A stretch of 64,000 nucleotides of DNA from Hymenobacter tibetensis (GTDB lineage: Bacteria > Bacteroidota > Bacteroidia > Cytophagales > Hymenobacteraceae), in assembly GCF_022827545.1 (NCBI RefSeq), contig NZ_CP094669.1, forward strand, positions 447,001-511,000, given 5' to 3'. Positions 16,067 through 27,850 of this stretch are shown piece by piece. Under the pieces are notes generated by a model. The model saw only the letters and a list, made by a program, of their open reading frames with translations. It was not told the origin of the DNA and did no database searches. How positions within the stretch are numbered: position 1 is the stretch's first letter; each line of letters opens with the position of its first letter. The position numbers were made by a program, and so were the translations under genes.

Positions 16067-17293
16067 ATGACGCTTTCCTTTGAAAACCGTGTGCGGGCTC
16101 TGCAAACCGCCCACGAAGCCCTACTGACGCGCCCTAATCCAGTCCAGGAGTCTGCCATGGCCAACGGACTCTACAGCCGATACCAGTTTCCGGTACTCAC
16201 CGCTGCCCACGTGCCCCTCACGTGGCGCTACGACTTTCAACCGCAAACCAACCCATACTTGCTAGAGCGGATTGGCGTGAACGGGGTGTTCAACTCAGGC
16301 GCCATCAAATGGCAGGGCAAGTACCTACTAGTAGCCCGCGTGGAAGGCACCGACCGTAAATCGTATTTCGCGGTAGCCGAAAGCCCCAATGGCATCGACA
16401 ACTTCCGCTTCTGGGACCATCCAGTGGTGCTGCCCGAAACCGCCGAGCCCGATACCAACGTGTACGACATGCGCCTGACCGCCCACGAAGACGGCTGGGT
16501 GTATGGCCTGTTCTGCACCGAGCGCCGCGACCCCGCCGCGCCGGACGCCGACCAGTCGGCGGCGGTAGCGGCGTGCGGCATTGCCCGCACCAAAGACCTG
16601 ATAACTTGGGAACGGCTGGCCGACCTGAAAACCCGCTCGGCCCAGCAGCGCAACGTGGTGTTGCACCCCGAGTTTGTAGACGGCCAATACGCTTTCTACA
16701 CGCGCCCCCAAGACAGCTTTATTGAGGCTGGTAGCGGCGGCGGCATCGGCTTCGGGCTGTCTGAGTCCATCGAGCAAGCCGAAGTGCACGAGGAAACTGT
16801 CATCGACCGAAAGCAGTACCACACAGTGTACGAGGCCAAAAACGGGCAGGGCCCGACGCCGCTGAAAACCCCACTTGGCTGGCTGCATCTGGCGCATGGC
16901 GTGCGCAACACGGCCGCTGGCCTGCGCTACGTGCTCTATATGTTCCTGACTGACCTCCACGACCTTACCCGCGTGACGCACAAGCCCGCCGGTTATTTTC
17001 TGGCGCCGGAAGGAGAGGAGCGCGTCGGTGATGTTTCCAACGTGGTGTTCAGCAACGGCTGGATTGCCGACGACAACGGGCAGGTGTTTATCTACTACGG
17101 CTCCTCCGATACGCGCATGCACGTAGCCACCTCCACCATCGATACGCTCCTGGATTATGTGCAGCACAACCCCGCCGATGGCCTGACATCCGCGGCTTCG
17201 GTACAAGCCATTGAGGCCTTGATTGCGCACAACCAGGAGGCCAACAGCGTTAACGTTGGAATGCAGGCCCGCACTTCCATTGCGCAGTTGTAA
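16067..17293 (+). CDS. GH130 4-O-beta-D-mannosyl-D-glucose phosphorylase
   Basis: A 408-residue cytoplasmic phosphorylase of glycoside hydrolase family 130. Members split mannosyl-beta-1,4-glucose with phosphate into mannose 1-phosphate and glucose. The five-bladed propeller contains the substrate-site segment [20 protein letters not shown] and the region [14 protein letters not shown], whose Asp is in the position of the family's general acid. Length and the neighbouring epimerase favour the mannosylglucose phosphorylase subgroup (GH130_1) over mannooligosaccharide phosphorylases. Exact chain-length preference is inferred. The epimerase gene starts 36 bases downstream. Confidence 0.88.
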
Positions 17294-17329
17294 GCTGCAT
17301 GCAGCAAGTCTGACCGAGAGTAAAAGGTG

Positions 17330-18535
17330 ATGATGCAACAAGCGGAGGCATTTCAGGAAGAGCTAGACCGAATTCTGACTTATTGGAGCACCCACATGCT
17401 CGACACGGCGCATGGGGGCTTCTACGGCCAGATAACGGATGAGAACAACGTAGTGGCGCAGGCGCCGAAGGGCTCGGTGTTGAATGCCCGCATCCTCTGG
17501 ACGTTCTCGGCGGCCTACCGACGGCAGCCCAACCCCACGCATCTAGCGTTGGCCACGCGGGCGTTCGGGTATTTGGAAAAACACTTCTTGGACGCCGAGC
17601 ACGGTGGGGTATTCTGGTCGGTTGATTATCTGGGCCAGCCGCTGGATACCCGGAAGCAGATTTATGCCTTGGCCTTCGCCGTGTATGGGCTAAGTGAATA
17701 TTACGCGGCCAGTGGCAACGAACGGGCGTTGCAACACGCGCAGGCATTGTTTCGCGCCATCGAGCAGCACAGCTTCGACCCGGAACATGGCGGCTACCTC
17801 GAAGCCCTGGCCCGTGACTGGTCGCCGCTGGCCGATTTGCGCCTGAGCGACAAAGACGCCAACGAGAAGAAAACGATGAACACCCACCTCCACATTCTGG
17901 AGGCGTACACCAACCTCTACCGCGTCTGGCCCGACCCACAGTTGCGCGCCCAAACGCAAGAGCTACTGGAAGTGTTTCAGGCGCATATCATCGACCCGAC
18001 TAGCCACCAGTTGCACCTGTTCCTCGACGAGCAGTGGCAGCCGAAGTCCACCCTCGTTTCGTTCGGCCACGACATTGAGGCTTCTTGGCTGTTGCTGGAA
18101 GCCGCCGAAGTGCTAGGCAACGAAGACCTTGTGACGCAGTTTCGGCGGGTAGCCGTTGACATGGCAACGACTGCAACGCGTGGGTTGGATACAGACGGCG
18201 GCCTCAACTACGAGTTTGATCCTGCCCAGGAGCATGGGGACCGAGACAAACACTGGTGGGTGCAGGCCGAAGCCATGGTTGGGCTGCTGAACGCTTACCA
18301 AGTGAGTGGGCAGCGCCGTTTCTACGAGCAATTTCAGGCGGTGTGGGAATTCACCCGCACCCATCTCCTCGACTACGCGCATGGCGAGTGGCTTTGGGGT
18401 GTGACGGCAACGCACCTTCCTATGACGGGAGAAGACAAAGCCGGTTTCTGGAAGTGTCCCTACCACAACACGCGCGCTTGTCTGGAAGTCCTGGCTCGGC
18501 TGCCCAAAGTACCCGTGCCTGCCCGCGCCAACTAG
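17330..18535 (+). CDS. cellobiose 2-epimerase (AGE family)
   Basis: A 401-residue (alpha/alpha)6-barrel enzyme that converts the reducing-end glucose of beta-1,4 disaccharides to mannose and back, for example mannobiose to mannosylglucose. The three family histidine sites are visible in NTHLHILEAY, FGHDIEASWLL and the C-terminal PYHNTRACLEV, plus the conserved HWWVQAEAMVG. The start is uncertain among GTG at 17327 and ATGs at 17330 and 17333; an ATG is preferred. Product flow is clear from context: epimerase output is the substrate of the adjacent GH130 phosphorylase. Confidence 0.9.
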   Translation: MMQQAEAFQEELDRILTYWSTHMLDTAHGGFYGQITDENNVVAQAPKGSVLNARILWTFSAAYRRQPNPTHLALATRAFGYLEKHFLDAEHGGVFWSVDYLGQPLDTRKQIYALAFAVYGLSEYYAASGNERALQHAQALFRAIEQHSFDPEHGGYLEALARDWSPLADLRLSDKDANEKKTMNTHLHILEAYTNLYRVWPDPQLRAQTQELLEVFQAHIIDPTSHQLHLFLDEQWQPKSTLVSFGHDIEASWLLLEAAEVLGNEDLVTQFRRVAVDMATTATRGLDTDGGLNYEFDPAQEHGDRDKHWWVQAEAMVGLLNAYQVSGQRRFYEQFQAVWEFTRTHLLDYAHGEWLWGVTATHLPMTGEDKAGFWKCPYHNTRACLEVLARLPKVPVPARAN

Positions 18536-18698: not shown

Positions 18699-19661
18699 TC
18701 ACGCTTCCTGCTTGGATTTTCGCGCTGGAACGGGCTTTTCGTCGCAGCAGCCGTGGGCGCCCATAGCGGGGGCTACGTCTTCGAGCTGTACGGTGCAGTG
18801 GCTGATGTTGAAGGCGTGCACCAAGTCGTGCTGCAGTTCTCCCAGAAACTCGTTGCTGTTGCCGCTGTTGGACCGTACCAAGTGCGCCGTAAGGGCCGTA
18901 TCCTGCGTGCTCAGGGGCCACACGTGCAAATCATGGACGCCTACCACACCGGGCCGAGCCAACAGAAACTCCCGTACCGCCGCCATGTCGATGCTTTCTG
19001 GGGCTGCTTGTAAAGCCATCTGGATGGTTTCGCGCAGCAACCCCCAGGAACTGTAGCCTACCACCACCAAAATCACGAAGCTGATAGCTGGGTCCAGCCA
19101 CATCCACCCGGTGAAATACACCAGCGCGCCACCCACTACCACGCCCACGGACACCAGCATGTCGGTGAGCATGTGCAGGTACGCGCCCCGCACGTTCACG
19201 TCGCCCTTTTGGCCGCTATGAAACAGCCAGGCCGTGAAGCCATTGACCACGATACCCAACCCAGCCAGCGCCATCACCACGGTGCCATTCACGGGCGTAG
19301 GGTGGCGCAAATGGTCCAAGGTGTCCCACAGAATAAAGCCCAGCGCCAGATACAGCAGGGCCGCATTCAGTAAGGCAGCCTGAATGGTAGCGCCTTTGTA
19401 GCCATACGTGAAACGCTCAGTGGCGCGGCGCTTAGCCAGCCAGGTGGCCCCCCAAGCCAGTGCCAAACTCAGGACGTCGCTCAGGTTGTGGCCCGCATCG
19501 GAAAGCAGCGCCGACGAGTTGGCCCACAAACCGCCAGCCGTTTCGCCAGCCACAAAAAGCAGGTTCAGGGCAATGCCCCATCCAAAAGCCCGGCCGAACT
19601 CCGCTGGCGGCGCATGGTGATGATGGTGGTCGTGTCCGTGTCCGTGGTGGGTGTGGGCCAT
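18699..19661 (-). CDS. cation diffusion facilitator (Zn/Cd/Co exporter type)
   Basis: A 320-residue inner-membrane H+-coupled metal exporter of the CDF family, ZitB/CzcD-like. The N terminus is a histidine tract (fourteen residues, mostly His). Helix 2 carries HNLSD and helix 5 HMLTD, the two His-x3-Asp pairs of the zinc-type tetrahedral site. A C-terminal metallochaperone-like domain follows, ending in a CC motif and a Lys-rich tail. The ATG at 19661 is preferred to an upstream TTG. It is the last gene of a minus-strand cluster with two TonB-dependent receptors and a predicted metal-binding lipoprotein, so metal homeostasis is a consistent theme. Confidence 0.92.
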   Translation of the reverse strand: MAHTHHGHGHDHHHHHAPPAEFGRAFGWGIALNLLFVAGETAGGLWANSSALLSDAGHNLSDVLSLALAWGATWLAKRRATERFTYGYKGATIQAALLNAALLYLALGFILWDTLDHLRHPTPVNGTVVMALAGLGIVVNGFTAWLFHSGQKGDVNVRGAYLHMLTDMLVSVGVVVGGALVYFTGWMWLDPAISFVILVVVGYSSWGLLRETIQMALQAAPESIDMAAVREFLLARPGVVGVHDLHVWPLSTQDTALTAHLVRSNSGNSNEFLGELQHDLVHAFNISHCTVQLEDVAPAMGAHGCCDEKPVPARKSKQEA

Positions 19662-19777
19662 AGTAGTCAAGCGTTTCGCGCAGGTTCACACAAAGTGAAA
19701 CCGCCATGATGTGCTAGGTTGTTTACTGCAACGCGGCAAGCTCCTTTGGGATTCACTTTAGCACACCCGTTTGAAAT

Positions 19778-22240
19778 TTACTTAAAACTCAACGGTACTA
19801 CCAGCCGCACGCTCACATTTCGTCCTTGGTTGAACACGCCGCTACGGCCGTTGCTGGGGTTGTACGCTGCGTACTTCAGCCGGCTCAAGTGGCTCTGGTA
19901 CCCCACATCAAACAGGTTATTGGCGGTCAGATAGATTGAAAACAGCGTTTTGTCTTGGCCATTGGTTATGTCAGAGCCCGCGCTTAGGTTGACTAGCGTG
20001 TAGCCGGGTGTGCGCGTTTCGGTTTCGAAGGCCGAGAACACCCGGTTTTGCGCGAAGGTGTATTCCACGCCGCCCCGGGCGTATAGGTTGCGCAAACGCG
20101 TGGTGCCCACCTTACGGAAGTTCACCCGCAGCTCCGACTGCAACCGGTCGGCGGGAATGAAGGGCAGATACTTCTGGCCAGCGGGCTGGTCGAACTGAAT
20201 GGCGCGCACCATAGAAAACGAGTTTTCGAAGTGCAGCCAGTCGAAGGGGTGCGGGTGGAGGTCCAGGGTGATTTCGCCCCCAGCCAGGCGCGCATCGCCT
20301 TGGCCGTAGCGGAACACTGGGTCGCCGGTGGTAGCCACCGAGTCGGCGGTGCCGCCAGCGTTGAGTAGGCGCGCCGGGAAAATGTAGTTGCTGATGCCGT
20401 TGCGGAACGCGTCCACAAAGAGGCCCACATGGTCGGAGATGTAACTAACGCCGCCATCCACCTGAAAGCTGGTTTCGGCCTTCAAGCCTGGCTCCCCAAT
20501 TTCGTAGCGAATGGTGCCCTCGTGTTGGCCATTCGAACCCAGTTCGGCAATATTCGGAGCCCGAAAGCCGCGGGCCAGGTTGGCTTTCAACACCAGCTTA
20601 TCGGTGGCGCTGAAGGCACCGCCAAAGCTGCCGCTCACGTTGCGGAAGGTACTTTGGAACCCCGGAAATTTCTCTTCTCCCGTAGTGGCCGGCCGCTCGT
20701 CATCGTCGAGCAGCAGCCGGTCGGCCGTGATGCGGCGCAAGTCGTAGCGCAGGCCGCCGGTCAGGTCGAGCTTGCCAAAGGTCTTCTTAGTGACGCCGAA
20801 CATACCGCCATCCGTCAAGTCGTACGCCGGAATTAGGAATTCCACGCCCTTGTTCTGGTTTTCCTGCCGCATGCCACTCACGCCCACGGTGGTTTGCCAG
20901 CCGTTCTTCTCAGGCAGAAAATAGCGCACCGCATAATCAACCGTGTGCAGCTGGAAGTAGAGGGAAGTTTCCTGGTCGTCGGCGGGGTTGCCGAATTCGC
21001 GCCGCAGGTTTTGCTGCCATCCTACGTTCAAGGTCAGGCGGCTTTGCCCCAGAATAAAGCTATTGTCGGTGCCGATGCGTAAGTGGTTGATCTGCTGGCT
21101 TGGCACCCCAATGCCGTAGCCGCGCAACTCGTTGTCGGTCACGGGCAATCCTACAATGTCGTTGGGGTCGAGGCCAACGGCTACTTGCTTTAGAAATCTG
21201 CCAGACACGGAGTCTCGGTCGCCTTCCACCAGCCCGAGTTCCTGGTTGAAGGAGTTGAACGTGAGGTGCGAGTAGCCCCAGCTTTTGTTTACGCCCACGT
21301 AGCCGCTGCCATCTAGCTCCCGAAAGCCGGAGTTGTACACGCGCCCGTCGTAGCGGTTGCGGTAGTTGCCGGCCAGCTTGCCCGTGCCACGCACCATCCA
21401 GTTCACTCCGTTCAGGTTGCCGGCGTTCATGAGCGAGTAGCCCTGTAGGTAGTTGTTGGTTTGGTAGTTGGCCGCCACCGACCCCAGAATCCGGCCTTCG
21501 TCTACCGGCTCGGGAGGCAGAAAGTTGATAACTCCCGCCAAGGCATCGGAGCCGTATAGCAAACTGCCAGGTCCTTTGATGATTTCCACCCGATCAACGC
21601 TGTATTCGTCGATTTCAATGCCGTGTTCGTCGCCCCACTGCTGGCCTTCCTGCTTGGCGCCGTTGTTGAGCGTTACGAGCCGGTTGGAGCCTAGGCCCCG
21701 AATAACGGGTTTGCTGATGGCCGCACCGGTGGTAATCTGGCTCAGGCCCGGCGTGTGGGCAATGGCATCCACGGCATTGGTAGCGGCCGTTTGGCGCAGC
21801 CGGGTCTGGTCTATCACGCTGGTAGGTACCGGCGAGCGGCGCAGCTCGGTGCTAGCTGATACCCCTGTCACGACCACCTGGCCAATTTCGGTGGCGGCTG
21901 GTGAGAGGGCTATGGTCAGCGGCTGCCCGTTGCCGGTTTCTACCGTTTGGACCACGGTGGTATAGCCCACAAAACGCACCTGCATCAGAAACCGGCCCTT
22001 GGGCAAATTCGCTAGCTGAAAGCTGCCATCAGCCGTGGTGGCGGTAGCGCGCTTGAGGTCAGGGAAGTAGATGGTGGCACCTGGCAGGGCTTCACCGGAG
22101 TTGGCATCGGTTACGCGGCCCGTGGTAGACTGAACAGCAGCTGGCGCCACTCGAGCCGGGCGAGTAGGGGAGGGCGCTTGGCCCAAAACACTTCCGCCCC
22201 CTAGTAATAGGCCAGCAGAAAGCAAAGAATAACGAACCAT
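19778..22240 (-). CDS. TonB-dependent receptor (second of the metal cluster)
   Basis: An 820-residue outer-membrane beta-barrel importer. After a signal peptide comes a carboxypeptidase-regulatory-like domain (about 45-125, GRVTDANSGEALPGATIYF), then the plug (VIDQTRLRQTAATNAVDAIA, then PVIRGLGSNRLV and LLYGSDALAGVINF), then the barrel ending in an aromatic-poor C terminus LSFK. The plug motif QEGQQWGDEHGIEID is shared with the other receptor in this cluster. The ligand is unknown; zinc or another transition metal is inferred from neighbours. Starts at 22240 and 22264 are both possible; 22240 gives the cleaner signal peptide. A terminator-like hairpin upstream suggests its own promoter. Confidence 0.9.
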   Translation of the reverse strand: MVRYSLLSAGLLLGGGSVLGQAPSPTRPARVAPAAVQSTTGRVTDANSGEALPGATIYFPDLKRATATTADGSFQLANLPKGRFLMQVRFVGYTTVVQTVETGNGQPLTIALSPAATEIGQVVVTGVSASTELRRSPVPTSVIDQTRLRQTAATNAVDAIAHTPGLSQITTGAAISKPVIRGLGSNRLVTLNNGAKQEGQQWGDEHGIEIDEYSVDRVEIIKGPGSLLYGSDALAGVINFLPPEPVDEGRILGSVAANYQTNNYLQGYSLMNAGNLNGVNWMVRGTGKLAGNYRNRYDGRVYNSGFRELDGSGYVGVNKSWGYSHLTFNSFNQELGLVEGDRDSVSGRFLKQVAVGLDPNDIVGLPVTDNELRGYGIGVPSQQINHLRIGTDNSFILGQSRLTLNVGWQQNLRREFGNPADDQETSLYFQLHTVDYAVRYFLPEKNGWQTTVGVSGMRQENQNKGVEFLIPAYDLTDGGMFGVTKKTFGKLDLTGGLRYDLRRITADRLLLDDDERPATTGEEKFPGFQSTFRNVSGSFGGAFSATDKLVLKANLARGFRAPNIAELGSNGQHEGTIRYEIGEPGLKAETSFQVDGGVSYISDHVGLFVDAFRNGISNYIFPARLLNAGGTADSVATTGDPVFRYGQGDARLAGGEITLDLHPHPFDWLHFENSFSMVRAIQFDQPAGQKYLPFIPADRLQSELRVNFRKVGTTRLRNLYARGGVEYTFAQNRVFSAFETETRTPGYTLVNLSAGSDITNGQDKTLFSIYLTANNLFDVGYQSHLSRLKYAAYNPSNGRSGVFNQGRNVSVRLVVPLSFK

Positions 22241-22295
22241 ATGACAAGGTAAGGAGGCAGACATGAACGAAAAATGAGCGTTCGGGATGCACTTC

Positions 22296-22335
22296 CTATA
22301 AAATAAGAAAGCTCCGACCACTGGCCGGAGCTTTC
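22296..22335 (-). terminator. probable terminator inside the metal cluster (minus strand)
   Basis: A perfect 10-bp stem (22307-22316 with 22326-22335) is followed on the minus strand by a T-rich tract (TTATTTTATA). It lies about 160 bases beyond the small lipoprotein stop and 67 bases ahead of the second receptor, dividing the cluster into two transcription units. Confidence 0.65.
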
Positions 22336-22495
22336 CTCAGGTTTCTCCAAAACCAAACCAGGAGAAGATGGCGCGGAGCCGTTTGCAGCCAGCCCCGCAA
22401 TATGGTAGAGGGTGAAGCCGCAGTACGCAGGCAAGGAAGCGGCAGGGCGGCTCGCTTCCCGCCGCGTTTCCTAGCCTACTCGTTGCTTCACCTTG

Positions 22496-23062
22496 TTATC
22501 TAACAGTGGTTAAGAATTTCACCTCCACATCCGTGTCGCCGGGAGTTTCCGTGCCGTTCTTGGTGCCGGGCTGGTGCCGTAGCGTGATCTTAAGCTCCCC
22601 CGTGCCAGCAGCGGTAGTGATCAAGCTAGTTTGCAGTCCTAGTTCCAGGTTTTTAGAATCCCGATCAGTACGCTTGATGGTCAGCAAGTTGGCTGGAGTG
22701 GAAGTGTACACGAACAGGTGCTCATCGGCCTCCTTCAGAATTTCAGCCGAAGTGTTTACTACCGGATTCTTGGTTTCATCAAGCAGGGTAAGAGTCCCGG
22801 TGTACGTGGTGTTAGCCGCCAGCGTGAGGGTACCCGTAACCGGAGCCGCGCCTCCTTCCCCGTCCGCATCTTTAGACGTCACCGATATTGGAGTACCGCC
22901 CCCAACTGGGGTGAGGGTATAAGTGACAGTCGTGATTTGCTCGTTGTCGTCGTCGGGCGTTGGGTCGTCATCGTCGTTGTTGCAGGCGCTGAACAACGGA
23001 GCGGCGGCCAGCAGTGCCAGCAGCGAAGTGCGGAGCAGAGAATTCTTGAAGGGAGTGTGCAT
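22496..23062 (-). CDS. small Asp-rich lipoprotein linked to TonB receptors
   Basis: A 188-residue lipoprotein with signal and lipobox (LFSAC), then an Asp-rich linker just after the cysteine (NNDDDDPTPDDDN). A predicted all-beta domain contains TVTYTLTPVGGG, GTLTLAANTTYTGTLTLLDE and a C-terminal LKITLRHQPGTKNG followed by GDTDVEVKF. Similar proteins occur next to TonB-dependent receptors in Bacteroidota; this is recalled knowledge of a family without a solved role. It lies 70 bases after the AztD-like gene on the same strand and is probably co-transcribed. The acidic linker may place the domain on the cell surface. Confidence 0.75.
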   Translation of the reverse strand: MHTPFKNSLLRTSLLALLAAAPLFSACNNDDDDPTPDDDNEQITTVTYTLTPVGGGTPISVTSKDADGEGGAAPVTGTLTLAANTTYTGTLTLLDETKNPVVNTSAEILKEADEHLFVYTSTPANLLTIKRTDRDSKNLELGLQTSLITTAAGTGELKITLRHQPGTKNGTETPGDTDVEVKFLTTVR

Positions 23063-23132
23063 GAGCTGAAGAATGAATGGAAGAGAAAGGTGTTGAAAAG
23101 GTCTAGTGAAGCACGTTGGGTAAGGTCAGGGC

Positions 23133-24341
23133 CTAGTGGCCGTCTTCATCACTTGCATCGGCGCCCGCAAACGCTATCCGCAACGGCTCGCCGGGCACGG
23201 TGAAGGTTTGCTGGTCGGCCAAGGTGTTTTTGTTGAGCATGTGCACCTTGCCTTGGGGTGCGTTGGTGATGTACACAAAGCGGCGGCTGGCCGCCAGATA
23301 CGGAGTGGCTGCTTTGGTATCGAGCAGGCCGGTGAGGGAGCGGCTGGCTTTTTGGGCACCCGTTGCGGCGTCAAACACGGTCAGTGTGCCGTCTTCGTCC
23401 AGCACGAGCAGGTGCTCACCTTCCTGGTCTAGAGCCACGCGGGCCAGCTTAGTGGATGTGCCGATCTGCGTAATAGTGTTGGTGGTCAGGTCAATGCGGA
23501 ACACGCCGTATCCGGCCCGTGAGCCCAAGAACGTGCGCGCTTTTTGGGCGTAATAAATGGTAGACAGCCAGTTGGAGCCCGCGCTGGCCGGATACGGAAT
23601 CAGGCGCTGCTCCCCGGTTTGCTTCACCACCAACAGCCCGCTCGACGACCCAAACACGGCTTGCTGCCCGTCGCCGGCGTCGCCGTGGATGCCTTGCGTT
23701 GCCACGCCTGGAGCCGATACCACCGCGCCCTGCGTGTTCACGAGTTTCACCTGCTCCGGCAGCGAGCCGGCTACGGTGTTGTTTTTGTGGGTCACAGCGT
23801 AGCTGCCGTTGTCAAACAAAATCATGGCGCCGTGATGCGCCGCTCCTGTTGCAATAGCGCTTGGCGCCGGAACCGTGTGGAGCTTGTCTTCTTCTACGTA
23901 GCTAATGGAAGCATCTCCATCATTGAAAATACTCACCTTGTTGTGTGAAGCCAGCACGTGGCTAGGCTTGGCGCCTGCCGACTTGGTGAGGCCCCATTTC
24001 GGCGTGCCCTTGATGTGAACATGGTCGTCGTGCAGTTCGATACCCGTATCAAAGAACTCCACCAAGTTGTTGGTGGAGTTCACCACCGTGGCCCAGCGCC
24101 CTGCGGGCGTGGCATACACCGTGCTGCCCCCGTACGTCGACTGGAAAGTGCTTTGTTCGTTTTTGGCTGGGTTCAGCAGCGTGACTGTGTTGCTGGTTTT
24201 GTCGGTGACAAGCAAACGGGTAAACGAGCTTTCCTCTTTGGCCTCAATTGGGGCATCCGACTCGTTGTCGTTTTTGTCGCAAGAAGAGAAAATGCTGGCG
24301 GCCAGAACGGCGGCGAAGGGGTAGATAAATTTGAATTTCAT
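23133..24341 (-). CDS. AztD-like beta-propeller metal-binding lipoprotein
   Basis: A 402-residue lipoprotein (lipobox SIFSSC, Cys21) whose mature part has the repeating beta pattern of a seven-bladed propeller. Histidines cluster as in zinc-binding proteins: HDDHVH at 104-109, His128 and His133 in KPSHVLASH, and the AHHG pair at 169-170. The layout resembles AztD, the periplasmic zinc chaperone of the AztABCD importer. No ABC importer is nearby here and the protein is lipid-anchored, unlike soluble AztD. The resemblance is judged by eye. It lies 31 bases after the first TonB receptor, so the two are almost certainly co-transcribed. Role inferred: accept or buffer metal at the outer membrane. 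Confidence 0.7.
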   Translation of the reverse strand: MKFKFIYPFAAVLAASIFSSCDKNDNESDAPIEAKEESSFTRLLVTDKTSNTVTLLNPAKNEQSTFQSTYGGSTVYATPAGRWATVVNSTNNLVEFFDTGIELHDDHVHIKGTPKWGLTKSAGAKPSHVLASHNKVSIFNDGDASISYVEEDKLHTVPAPSAIATGAAHHGAMILFDNGSYAVTHKNNTVAGSLPEQVKLVNTQGAVVSAPGVATQGIHGDAGDGQQAVFGSSSGLLVVKQTGEQRLIPYPASAGSNWLSTIYYAQKARTFLGSRAGYGVFRIDLTTNTITQIGTSTKLARVALDQEGEHLLVLDEDGTLTVFDAATGAQKASRSLTGLLDTKAATPYLAASRRFVYITNAPQGKVHMLNKNTLADQQTFTVPGEPLRIAFAGADASDEDGH

Positions 24342-24372
24342 GAGGAAAGTCTTGTCGAGAAGGAGTGGAATC

Positions 24373-26763
24373 CTAAAGTTTTAAGCTCAACCGCAGCGTC
24401 ACGTTGCGCCCCATTTCGTCGGCGAAGTAGCGGTAGCGGTTGAGGTAGTCTCGATATCGTTGGTTGAGTAGGTTGGAGCCAGCCACGCTGATTTCCAGCG
24501 GCAGTCGGCCCCAATACAAAGTGGTTCCAGCTTCCAGCCCGAGCAGCGCGTAGCCGGCCGGTGGGAGCTTGTAGTCTCGTTCGATGTAGTTGTCGGGCAC
24601 GCGGGTCTGGCGGGCCACGGCGTAGCCACCTAGCTGCACGTAGCGCTGCCGAAGGTGGGCAGTGGCTTGGTCGGCAAAGTCATAGCGCAGCGAAGCTTCG
24701 GCCCGGTCAGCTGGCATAAAAATCTGCCATTCGTCTTGGCGCGTGTCGCGGGCCCGTACCAAGGAGCCTTTCGCGCCCAACAGCCACTGCGGCCCCAACT
24801 GGTAGGTGCCCGCCACGTCGATACCGCGGAACGTGGCATCCGTCTGCTGGTATTCCCAGCTGATAAGCGCACCCCGAATGGTGATAACGGGCGGCAGAAT
24901 AGGCACCTGGTAGATGAAGTCGGTGATGCGCGTCTGGTACACCGTTATTTCGCCGTTCAAGCGTGGGTTGTCGTGCCAGGTGGCTGTCAGCCCAATATTG
25001 AGGGCGGTTTCGGGTGCCAAAGGCCCATTGCCAGGCACCAAGTCATAGCCCAGTTCATATTGCGCGTTGTGCACACCGTCGCTATACCGCTCGTTGGCCG
25101 CCGGTGCCCGGCGCGTGAGGCCTGCTGCCAGGTTGAGCGTCAGGTGCGTAGAGGGGTCGAAGGTAGCCCCCAACGAGGCTGCTGGTGTGGTGTACTGAAA
25201 ACGGGTACGGTCCACGAAAAAACTGCCGGTGCTGTCCCGGTCGCCACGCTTCACTTGCAAGTCGCGGCGGTCAAGGCGTAAGCCAGCTTCTAACAGCCAC
25301 TTGTTGTGCTGCCATTTTTCTATCCAAAAAGCGCCAACGGTGGTGTTGGTGTAGAACGGAATGAATTGCCGACTGCCCGCCGCGTACCGGTTGAACTGGT
25401 AGGTGCCCGCCACGCCCACACTGCACGTTAGGTTGTGCCAGCGGTGATGTTCCCATTGTAGCTCGCCCGTGCTGGTGCGGTTGGTGTAGCTCAGCTCCGG
25501 CTTGTTGAGCGAAGCGAGGTTGTCGTTGCGCGGCCGGAACTTGTCGTATTCGTCCCGGAAATCAGTTTGCTGCGCCACCGTGGCAGTCAAACGGCCAACG
25601 TCACCAGTTTGCAGAAAGCCTGTGAGCTTGGCCACATCGTGCCGCACCTGCTGATACGCTCGGCTGATGTCGTAGCTGAAGCCAGACGTTTCCAGCGGCC
25701 GAGTGCGCGCAATAGCCAGTTCCAAATCGGTGGGGCTCCCTACGTGTGCGGCCGGCAAAATCCCGATTCGGGTGTTATACTGGCTGTAGAAAGCTTCCAG
25801 GCCGTAGTTGTCTTTGCGCCAGCCCGCGGCGGCCGAGAAGTCATACTCCTGAAAGCCGGAGTTCTTGAGATAGTAGCCAGGGGCCCGCATCGTGCCAGCC
25901 CGTTTGGCCGTGCCTTGTATCCGCCAGTTGAAGGCCGGTAGGCGGCGCAGTTTGCCTTCCACGGTGCCCGAAGCAGCGCCGAGTCCGTTGTTGCTCATGC
26001 CCACCAGATTCAGCTCGCCCCCTATGCCTACCGAATCGGGCAGGGGTTTCGGCTCGACCAGCACCACGCCCCCAATGGCATCAGAGCCGTAGCGGACACT
26101 GGCCGCACCTTTCACTACCGTGAGGCGCGACGCAATAAACGGGTCTATTTCCGGACCGTGTTCCTGGCCCCACTGCTGGCCTTCTTGCCGCACCCCGTTG
26201 TTGAGGATGGTGATGCGGTTGGAGTGCAGCCCATGAATCATCGGCTTGAAAATGCTGGGGCCAGTTTGTATGGCCGTTACCCCAGATATCTTCTGCAATG
26301 CCTCGCCTAGCGCCTGCCCCCGGGTTTGCTGCAACGCCTGCCCGCTGAGCGTAGCGGTAGGCTGCGCAGGAGTAGCTACCCGCTCACCGCGCACAGTAGC
26401 GCCGCGCAGGGCCACCGCATTAGGATGCAGCTGAAAGTTGCGCACCAATGCCCGTTCCAGGCGCAGTTCCACCGTCTCGGCTTGGTAGCCCAGAAAGGAA
26501 ACCTGCACGTGGTAGAGCCCCGCACAAAGGTGAAAATGGAAGTTGCCAGCCGCGTCGGTTTGGGTGGCTTGCTGCGTTTCCAGCACCACCACCGTCGCTC
26601 CCGGCAGGTCCGCCCGCGACTCATGGTCGGCGACGCGTCCGCTCAGCGACAGAGCACATTCCGAGGGCGTTTGCGCATGGCCAAGGGTAGCTACGCTCAG
26701 TAAGAGCAGCAGCCACAAGCCTTGCCAGCCCGCCCCCGGGGTGCCCGGAAATCGGAAAGACAT
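24373..26763 (-). CDS. TonB-dependent receptor (first of the metal cluster)
   Basis: A 796-residue outer-membrane receptor. Signal peptide, then a carboxypeptidase-regulatory-like domain (LSGRVADHESRADLPGATVV), a plug (QALGEALQKISGVTAIQ, MIHGLHSNRITILNNG, SVRYGSDAIGGVVLVEPK) and a barrel ending GRNVTLRLSLKL. The plug shares QEGQQWGxEHGxEID with the second receptor of the cluster. It lies between a His-rich small secreted protein and the AztD-like lipoprotein, all on one strand. Metal (zinc most likely) is the inferred cargo, either free or chelated. No SusD partner is present, arguing against a glycan receptor. Confidence 0.9.
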   Translation of the reverse strand: MSFRFPGTPGAGWQGLWLLLLLSVATLGHAQTPSECALSLSGRVADHESRADLPGATVVVLETQQATQTDAAGNFHFHLCAGLYHVQVSFLGYQAETVELRLERALVRNFQLHPNAVALRGATVRGERVATPAQPTATLSGQALQQTRGQALGEALQKISGVTAIQTGPSIFKPMIHGLHSNRITILNNGVRQEGQQWGQEHGPEIDPFIASRLTVVKGAASVRYGSDAIGGVVLVEPKPLPDSVGIGGELNLVGMSNNGLGAASGTVEGKLRRLPAFNWRIQGTAKRAGTMRAPGYYLKNSGFQEYDFSAAAGWRKDNYGLEAFYSQYNTRIGILPAAHVGSPTDLELAIARTRPLETSGFSYDISRAYQQVRHDVAKLTGFLQTGDVGRLTATVAQQTDFRDEYDKFRPRNDNLASLNKPELSYTNRTSTGELQWEHHRWHNLTCSVGVAGTYQFNRYAAGSRQFIPFYTNTTVGAFWIEKWQHNKWLLEAGLRLDRRDLQVKRGDRDSTGSFFVDRTRFQYTTPAASLGATFDPSTHLTLNLAAGLTRRAPAANERYSDGVHNAQYELGYDLVPGNGPLAPETALNIGLTATWHDNPRLNGEITVYQTRITDFIYQVPILPPVITIRGALISWEYQQTDATFRGIDVAGTYQLGPQWLLGAKGSLVRARDTRQDEWQIFMPADRAEASLRYDFADQATAHLRQRYVQLGGYAVARQTRVPDNYIERDYKLPPAGYALLGLEAGTTLYWGRLPLEISVAGSNLLNQRYRDYLNRYRYFADEMGRNVTLRLSLKL

Positions 26764-26914
26764 AAAACAAGAAAGAGCCGGTGAAAACTAAACCGGCCGC
26801 CATACGCTTCTAGCCGCTGGAAAGCAGGCAGAAGAATTCCCGTTGAAAAACGGGGCTGTGGCTACTGGTTGCTTTGTTCGCAAACTGGCAGCCACCGCAG
26901 GCAGCACTTCAGGT

Positions 26915-27256
26915 CTAGGACCGGCAGGGCGGACCGCGCAGATCGGCCGTGGGGCGCGTAGCCGATAGCCACACCGAAATCTGTGATTCGGAGCGGGTGC
27001 GCGCATACGCTGCAAAAAGCTGCGGCAGTTCCAGCGGCGGTGCCGGCTGGAAAGGCACGTGGTAGAAGTGGTTGACGTCGCAGTGCTGGTGTTTGGCACT
27101 CAGCACGGTCTTGCCTTTCAGGGTTCCCGGAGCCAGTGTGGGTTCTTCCGTGGTGTGCTGGTGGGCGTGCAAATTCAGAATCCACGCCTCTGGCAGCAGC
27201 ACCCGCGTAAAGCAGAGCAGCAACACCAAAGCCAACCGGGACCGAAGAGTTTGCAT
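26915..27256 (-). CDS. His-rich small envelope protein
   Basis: A 113-residue protein with an N-terminal hydrophobic segment that is a signal peptide or anchor (LRSRLALVLLLCFTRVLLPE). Two histidine clusters follow: HAHQH (30-34) and KHQHCDVNHFYH (His56, His58, Cys59, His63, His66). The second could form a metal site. The C-terminal 40 residues are basic and Pro-rich and end in PPCRS. No named family is recognised, though similar proteins are remembered ahead of TonB-receptor genes in Bacteroidota. The ATG at 27256 is chosen because it starts the hydrophobic segment. It is the promoter-proximal gene of the metal cluster. Confidence 0.65.
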   Translation of the reverse strand: MQTLRSRLALVLLLCFTRVLLPEAWILNLHAHQHTTEEPTLAPGTLKGKTVLSAKHQHCDVNHFYHVPFQPAPPLELPQLFAAYARTRSESQISVWLSATRPTADLRGPPCRS

Positions 27257-27262
27257 ATGCAA
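27251..27262. promoter_or_regulatory. palindrome over the start of the His-rich gene
   Basis: TTGCATATGCAA is a perfect 12-base palindrome that includes the ATG of the His-rich gene. It could be an operator for a metalloregulator or a chance effect of the start codon context. It does not match a known Zur or Fur box. Confidence 0.3.
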
Positions 27263-27850
27263 CAATGTGTCGAAGACGGACAAATGTACAAGGGAATTCG
27301 GAACCTTGGTCAGATTATTCCCAGAAACAATTGACAATAGGGGGTGGACTTAATGAAAGCATAACTCCCTAACAATGCGGTGGCAATACAGGAAGCCGAC
27401 CTTTGTGATGCTTCTTTCACTGATGCTATCCGCTATGAAAACCTTTGCTGCCCGTCTGCTTCGCCATGTTGCTTCTGCGTTGCGTCCTTACCCCAAACGC
27501 CCTACTGCTGCCAGCGAAACCCTCTTCGTATGAAGGCAAAAAGTAGCTCTAGCACTTTCCACTTCCGGCGAAGACCGTTCTGCTACCGACAGCCAGCTAC
27601 TGTTTTCCGCTCCAGTAGCGCTTGTTCTATTGTTGAGCTTGTAGAAGTCTCGAAACCAACTGCGGTGCCTGCATTAGCGCAAAGCTGGGTGGTTGGTAAG
27701 TGGGTGAAAGCAGCGTGATAACTTAGCGACCTAAAACGCGTGTTTGTCGTCGCAAAGTTCAACGTCACCGAAAAAGTACTATTTGCCGATAAGCCCTTCT
27801 GTAAATTTGTAGCCTTCAGTGGTGCGAATGAGTGCTGCCGCTGGCCGCTC
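27257..27850. other. long spacer between metal cluster and next gene
   Basis: This 594-base stretch has no convincing gene. It holds a short open frame of 32 codons at 27435-27533 on the plus strand (begins MKTFAARLLRHVASALR, basic and amphipathic). That frame is preceded by GACCTTTG, one base off a -7 element. A better promoter (27782-27809) for the downstream gene is annotated separately. A longer plus-strand frame through 27380-27718 has Ser/Cys-rich low-quality content and is not called. Confidence 0.45.
27782..27809 (+). promoter_or_regulatory. Bacteroidota-type promoter
   Basis: TTTG at 27782-27785 and TAAATTTG at 27802-27809 are separated by 16 bases, slightly short of the usual spacing. 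It implies transcription starting near 27816 and therefore supports translation from the ATG at 27851 rather than from codons upstream. Confidence 0.5.

Follow-up and report, generated by a model that had tools for sequence, protein, structure and literature searches.

The window analysed here is a stretch of 64,000 nucleotides of the Hymenobacter tibetensis genome, which comprises 6.33 Mb in 7 contigs. It possesses a cluster of six genes on the minus strand, encoding a small histidine-rich exported protein, a TonB receptor (receptor A), an AztD-like lipoprotein, a small lipoprotein (Lp), a second TonB receptor (receptor B) and a CDF exporter (Table 1). All six open reading frames of the initial annotation were found in their places, as were the zinc-type His/Asp pairs it had read in the exporter. 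Its observation that SusD is missing is in line with the profile searches, where no SusD family was present among the matches of the six proteins at E<=1. The small histidine-rich protein matched no Pfam or NCBIfam family over cut-off; it is a possible periplasmic zinc carrier. Neither the Rfam nor the tRNA scan had any match in the window. On the opposite strand beside the cluster, a 408 aa ORF (16067-17293) is followed by a GlcNAc 2-epimerase-family gene (17327-18535), which looks unconnected with metals.

Table 1. Genes and predicted sequence elements of the cluster, in window positions.
Feature	Position	Strand	Remarks
-7-like element TACATTTG	27281-27288	minus	fits TAnnTTTG
Predicted Zur box CGACACATTGTTGCA	27258-27272	minus	3 mismatches to TGCAACAnTGTTGCA; 1 base 5' of the small His-rich ATG
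Small His-rich exported protein, 113 aa	26915-27256	minus	ATG at 27256
TonB receptor A, ZnuD-like	24373-26763	minus	plug E201-H202, barrel-loop H565
AztD-like beta-propeller lipoprotein	23133-24341	minus	ligand sets of both zinc sites
Lp, small lipoprotein	22496-23062	minus	acidic run after lipid cysteine; beta-rich model
Terminator-like hairpin	22305-22337	minus	15 pairs, T-rich tail; between Lp and receptor B
TonB receptor B	19778 to about 22264	minus	receptor A's subfamily, genus core; plug E232-H233, barrel-loop H600 (numbering from 22321 start)
CDF exporter	18699 to about 19661	minus	His-rich N-terminus; HxxxD pairs at residues 61 and 166 (numbering from TTG 19670)

Both receptors contain Pfam Plug and carboxypeptidase-regulatory-like domains, and ZnuD is the best solved sequence relative of each. 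A model of receptor A was built from 14 homologues (mean pLDDT 76.4, pTM 0.71). When it was compared with PDB folds by Foldseek, ZnuD chains occupied ranks 1-4, followed by OprC (copper) and then ChuA (heme); this fold match refers to the model of receptor A only. By fold for receptor A and by solved sequence relative for both, the receptors thus stand closest to ZnuD and not to the vitamin, siderophore or glycan receptors, which the initial annotation had named as the grouping that would speak against it. ZnuD of Neisseria meningitidis binds zinc through Asp99, His100, Glu340 and His499 (PMC4557270). Three of these four ligands (D99, H100 and H499) aligned with E201, H202 and H565 of receptor A, residues 197-201 of which have low model confidence; E340 was not placed. 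Position 201 is E or D, and positions 202 and 565 are H, in 14/14 receptor A homologues. The plug E-H motif of receptor B was found in 30 and the loop histidine in 27 of 33 clusters, counted with a strict pattern which the rest did not fit. Receptor A is like ZnuD in its best fold match and in the positions of the plug Asp/Glu-His pair and the loop histidine, but differs from it in showing 19-20% identity in the fold alignment, in the extra N-terminal carboxypeptidase-regulatory-like domain and in the accompanying lipoproteins. Against the ZnuD family NF038289 the two receptors scored 102.8 and 107.3 bits, far below the cut-off of 950.

The protein encoded between the receptors had initially been described as an AztD-like lipoprotein, and it is an AztD homologue. 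It matched the NCBIfam profile NF038015 over residues 45-393 (E=5.7e-31), with a score of 107.5 bits which is below the curated cut-off of 400, and it also matched the solved AztD chains in the PDB (E=1.3e-19). AztD forms an eight-bladed propeller with a Cys214-Cys231 disulfide; zinc site 1 is composed of His124, His167 and His218, and site 2 of His99, His102, Asp104 and the C-terminal His408 (PMC6689063). Compared with the Paracoccus denitrificans protein, the window protein has H128, H170 and H219 at site 1 and H104, H107, H109 and H402 at site 2, where the assignment of H104/H107/H109 requires moving an alignment gap by two residues. A constant residue offset placed most of the AztD residues but not His218, which was putatively identified by its distance of four from Cys214 in the alignment. 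H104, H107, H128, H170 and H219 are invariant in 9/9 AztD-like proteins, and the place equivalent to Asp104 is H or D in all nine. The last residue is histidine in 17 of 20 AztD-like proteins, the exceptions being those of Hymenobacter sp. YC55, locus L012 and Bernardetia. Unlike AztD, the window protein is a lipoprotein, is coupled to a TonB receptor instead of an ABC transporter and lacks the disulfide, as its only cysteine is the lipid cysteine. It shares 22-24% identity with plasmid genes annotated as aztD; in the Phyllobacterium plasmid used as comparator, no ABC genes are listed next to aztD. Nearly half of the known AztD sequences are reported near a ZnuA-type gene (PMC6689063), and AztD of Paracoccus is induced by zinc starvation (PMC5387054). 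The cluster possesses no linked AztABC transporter, and for ABC-3 importers the absence noted initially holds beyond it: PF00950, the family of the ZnuB/AztB permease, had 0 matches genome-wide, with 13 of 14 control genomes positive.

No Pfam or NCBIfam family was matched over cut-off by Lp. A PDB search with its model (mean pLDDT 76.1) gave 0 matches at E<=0.001, hence no function is proposed from its fold. The published surface-export signal of lipoproteins is C-x-K-(D/E)2 for Capnocytophaga, while SDDDD or SDDFE is given for two others (PMC5080379). From the lipid cysteine onwards, Lp proteins read CNNDDDDP (window), CEKDDP and CSKDET, and AztD-like proteins read CDKNDN (window), CEKDDM, CSNDDD and CDKDDK, with CDKSST and CDKNES fitting weakly. 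The lipobox pattern was present in 10 of 13 other Lp proteins queried, two of which (CRRTDN) are unlike the export signal. Because the acidic residues after the lipid cysteine resemble these signals, the Asp run of Lp is better explained as an address tag than as the metal buffer for which the initial annotation had taken it, and a surface-export tag is the simplest reading.

Residue conservation is accompanied by a partial conservation of gene order, which had been proposed earlier as a check on the cluster. Receptor B has a match of at least 65% identity in 36 of 37 genomes of the genus, own genome included and some matches in pieces. Thirty-three receptor B clusters were mapped, 32 from relatives along with the window. 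The small histidine-rich gene precedes receptor B in 32 of them, and the CDF gene is situated directly after receptor B in 17 and farther on in 6; in the remaining 10 the stretch retrieved did not show one. Receptor A and Lp are inserted in 9 of the 33. Among the mapped clusters aztD lies inside only in the window; this is also the case in YC55, which shows the gene order of the window with one extra receptor before the CDF gene. The extra receptor of YC55 (L127:12673-15150) is a tandem copy of receptor B, 58% identical to it. Two genomes (G027 and G004) possess a separate locus in which a Fur-family gene is followed by the histidine-rich, receptor A and Lp genes, with aztD on the other side. 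In G004 the latter is a remnant (L019:9944-10078), which suggests that aztD can be lost. The aztD gene is divergent from receptor A-Lp in two genomes (G021 and G033) and occurs without them in five (G006, G010, G018, G025 and G026).

AztD-like matches were found in 10 of the 37 genus genomes (remnant and own genome included) and in 0 of 22 other genomes of the order in that sample; a wider draw gave one match in another genus of the order. In the phylum, 11 of 395 Bacteroidota genomes, own included, possess AztD-like genes. At 8 of 10 other phylum loci aztD follows a TonB receptor, either directly or after one further lipoprotein gene, which Pfam assigns to DUF4625 at L173, the one locus scanned. 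As judged by eye, the first gene of the operon encodes a small histidine-rich protein in at least 5 of these 10 loci. Relatives of Lp are present in 85 of the 395 genomes. Ten Lp loci, taken from the best-scoring of the 85 genomes and not at random, were inspected: a receptor A homologue adjoins Lp in 8, 3 contain MerC, identified once each by Pfam, by homology match and by eye, and 2 contain a Fur-family gene.

The region upstream of the first gene fits TAnnTTTG, which we take to be the -7 promoter element of Bacteroidota, and a site of the palindrome TGCAACAnTGTTGCA sits between this -7-like element and the start codon. Among 45 records scanned, TAnnTTTG was followed by the core of the box within 5-30 bases in 11. 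In the window alone the palindrome is at chance level, with 2 matches and as many in 93 of 100 shuffles. In the own genome, 12 sites with up to 2 mismatches were found versus 6 for a control pattern. Four sites have one mismatch, one each at the start of a paralogous His/TonB receptor pair, upstream of MerC, upstream of a methyltransferase-ZIP pair and at an FAD oxidoreductase, the last within a long ORF just 5' of its FAD-oxidoreductase domain. A second predicted zinc locus of the own genome (L035, G000:C1:3121001-3140500) consists of a box, the histidine-rich paralogue, a TonB receptor, ABC-type genes, a Fur-family gene, another box and MerC. Across 35 genomes, 45 one-mismatch sites were counted versus 7 for the reversed pattern, and 20 genomes have at least one. 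One locus from each of 19 genomes was surveyed, with the CobW gene assigned by Pfam and the others by eye or by homology match. The sites belonged to AztD (2), ZIP (3), CobW GTPase (1), Lp (1), FAD-oxidoreductase-like genes (3) and a TonB-receptor/ABC pair (1), and 8 of the 19 had no obvious zinc-linked gene. In four genomes an FAD-oxidoreductase-like gene is located at the box or behind it, as identified by Pfam at L036:3591-5042 and by eye at L043, L057 and L059.

Comparison with permuted palindromes distinguished the genes which carry the box. Before AztD the mismatch sum is 25 versus 55.8 +/- 3.3 for 150 permuted palindromes, and 8 of 10 loci have a box with up to 3 mismatches, but the palindrome was first spotted by eye upstream of the stand-alone aztD genes (L011-L018) and those loci are no independent test. 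Of the two AztD loci without a near box, one is the G004 remnant and the other is the window, whose aztD is internal to the operon. Independent loci are the ZIP and MerC sites of the own genome, YC55, Bernardetia and the phylum loci. At the small histidine-rich gene the mismatch sum is 146 versus 201 +/- 8.6 (lowest 174) for 200 permuted palindromes, and 17 of 34 loci have a box with up to 3 mismatches (controls: mean 0.34, highest 11); the predicted box is found at this gene also in YC55. A box lies near the first gene in 11/11 loci with receptor A and Lp versus 6/23 without them (Fisher p=8.7e-5). In the phylum, all 10 AztD loci outside the own genome have a box with up to 2 mismatches (100 controls: mean 0.56 loci, highest 5), as do 8 of 10 Lp loci (controls: mean 0.55 loci, highest 4). 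A Bernardetia plasmid carries two perfect boxes upstream of an aztD gene annotated as 'hypothetical protein'. Paired boxes 38 bases apart were observed at L014, L169, L171, L172 and L174-L177 and may reflect cooperative binding of a repressor.

This box is a shared site of metalloregulator type, such as the initial annotation had recommended to look for. Since it recurs in relatives ahead of aztD, Lp, ZIP, MerC and CobW-family genes, the palindrome TGCAACAnTGTTGCA is most likely a Zur box. Three Fur-family genes of the genome (L020, L021 and L022) are candidate regulators. A Fur-family gene also lies beside the locus in G027 and G004 and beside Lp/receptor A at L186 and L187.

The CDF protein matched Pfam Cation_efflux and ZT_dimer; its score of 254.1 is above the cut-off of the CDF superfamily (82.35), and that for ZitB (187.9) is below the cut-off of 408. 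The genome possesses two other CDF genes. No enrichment of the box was found before receptor B or CDF in the permuted-palindrome comparison. The hairpin between Lp and receptor B has the longest stem listed in the window, where terminator-like patterns are at chance level (10 found, 10.2 expected). As the hairpin precedes receptor B and no box is found there or at CDF, the exporter is adjacent to the upstream genes, but receptor B and CDF probably form a separate transcription unit, which may be co-regulated by readthrough. The exporter, which the initial annotation had paired with the capture system, is thus better placed with receptor B in a genus-core unit, and the box is present in a minority of the clusters without receptor A.

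Taken together, the small histidine-rich, receptor A, AztD-like and Lp genes probably constitute a zinc-starvation operon with capture at the cell surface, ZnuD-like import, Zur-type repression and a ZIP transporter as the inner step. At high cytoplasmic zinc, a Zur-type repressor of the Fur family would occupy the box and block transcription. At low zinc, the two putative surface lipoproteins and the ZnuD-like receptor would be made. The AztD-like propeller would catch zinc outside the cell and hand it over by way of the exposed site that includes the C-terminal histidine, and receptor A would take it from the propeller and import it with TonB energy. Zinc in the periplasm, perhaps carried by the small histidine-rich protein, would then reach a ZIP transporter whose operon carries the box. 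The own-genome ZIP gene sits behind a box and the genome has no ABC-3 permease match, which makes ZIP the likely inner-membrane step. The ZIP transporter zupT is reported to be involved in zinc transport in Riemerella, another member of Bacteroidota, where it is under the MerR-type regulator ZntR (PMC11960050); other regulators therefore act in the phylum. Receptor B and CDF would be a neighbouring unit of the genus core, with a related chemistry. Three earlier claims are retained here on the basis of the AztD homology, the ZnuD-like receptor A and the shared box: that the cargo is probably zinc, that it is captured at the outer membrane, and that TonB drives its uptake with the participation of a lipoprotein from a metal-transfer family.

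The location of the AztD-like lipoprotein bears on a second reading, which we consider possible though doubtful. In it the same zinc-starvation operon encodes a lipoprotein facing the periplasm, an inner chaperone which collects zinc from receptor A for ZIP or for apo-enzymes. The known Gram-negative AztD is mainly periplasmic and gives zinc to AztC (PMC6689063), and the ligands of the transfer site, including the C-terminal histidine, are kept in the window protein. Against this stand its lipid anchor and the acidic residues close to the lipid cysteine, which resemble the export signals, albeit with two weakly fitting relatives; in addition, no ABC-3 permease was matched as a target of delivery.

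Another metal in the same kind of operon seems unlikely. The box could be the site of a Fur-family regulator that responds to manganese, iron or cobalt, a metal which the cluster would then import; there are three Fur-family genes to choose from, and none of the ZIP, MerC and CobW families is restricted to zinc. Both the AztD ligand sets and the ZnuD-like receptor indicate zinc. Still less probable is heme uptake, with receptors that take heme and Lp as heme-binding lipoprotein, after the manner of the heme uptake pair HmuR and HmuY. The heme families TIGR01785/TIGR01786 are the top NCBIfam matches of both receptors, but the best scores, 158.4 and 159.7, are under the cut-off of 316.85, and four ZnuD chains lead the fold search of receptor A. 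The scheme of plug and loop histidines is common to heme receptors too (PMC4557270). The AztD homologue, the co-occurrence of the box with ZIP, MerC and CobW genes and the failure of Lp to pass any Pfam cut-off also oppose heme. Metal resistance, in which surplus metal would be held at the surface by receptors and lipoproteins and expelled by the adjacent zinc-type CDF, often encoded directly after receptor B, is the least probable, as TonB receptors import, the box is common to uptake-type genes and not enriched before CDF, and two further CDF genes exist in the genome.

Beyond the surface-capture operon itself, we tentatively propose, at somewhat less than even confidence, that a Bacteroidota AztD family has moved to the cell surface as a zinc-catching lid on ZnuD-like receptors, a metal counterpart of BtuG-BtuB, within a phylum-wide Zur regulon marked by TGCAACAnTGTTGCA and feeding ZIP in genomes that lack ABC importers. 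In the open literature searched, there seems to be little on how Bacteroidota take up zinc across the outer membrane. Among the open-access matches listed, no title or abstract opening described an AztD/TonB receptor system, the scope being literature and not regulon databases. Nothing was found there on AztD with Flavobacterium, the letters of TGCAACAnTGTTGCA led to unrelated work among the matches listed, and DUF4625 was unmentioned among those listed for it with zinc or TonB. Zinc work in the phylum exists, as for ZntR and zupT in Riemerella (PMC11960050). The box, the receptor/lipoprotein pair and the candidate regulators offer an entry to Bacteroidota zinc uptake.

Zur regulons of other phyla comprise TonB receptors, ZIP transporters, CobW GTPases and AztABC (PMC6103462), and the TonB receptor, ZIP and CobW genes which share the box here are like them; the examined text of that review has 0 occurrences of the word stems Bacteroid and Flavobacter. 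For the AztD-like protein and receptor A, the closest mechanism is most likely a lid of the BtuG type, by analogy of gene arrangement. In the BtuB-BtuG system for vitamin B12 in Bacteroides, too, a TonB receptor gene lies beside that of a beta-propeller lipoprotein which may capture the ligand (PMC10404256). BtuG has seven blades and binds B12, and its complex is solved (PMC10404256), whereas AztD has eight blades and zinc sites and the pairing in the window is a predicted one. If the proposed reading is true, a bare metal ion would join glycans and B12 among the cargoes of lipoprotein-lidded uptake.
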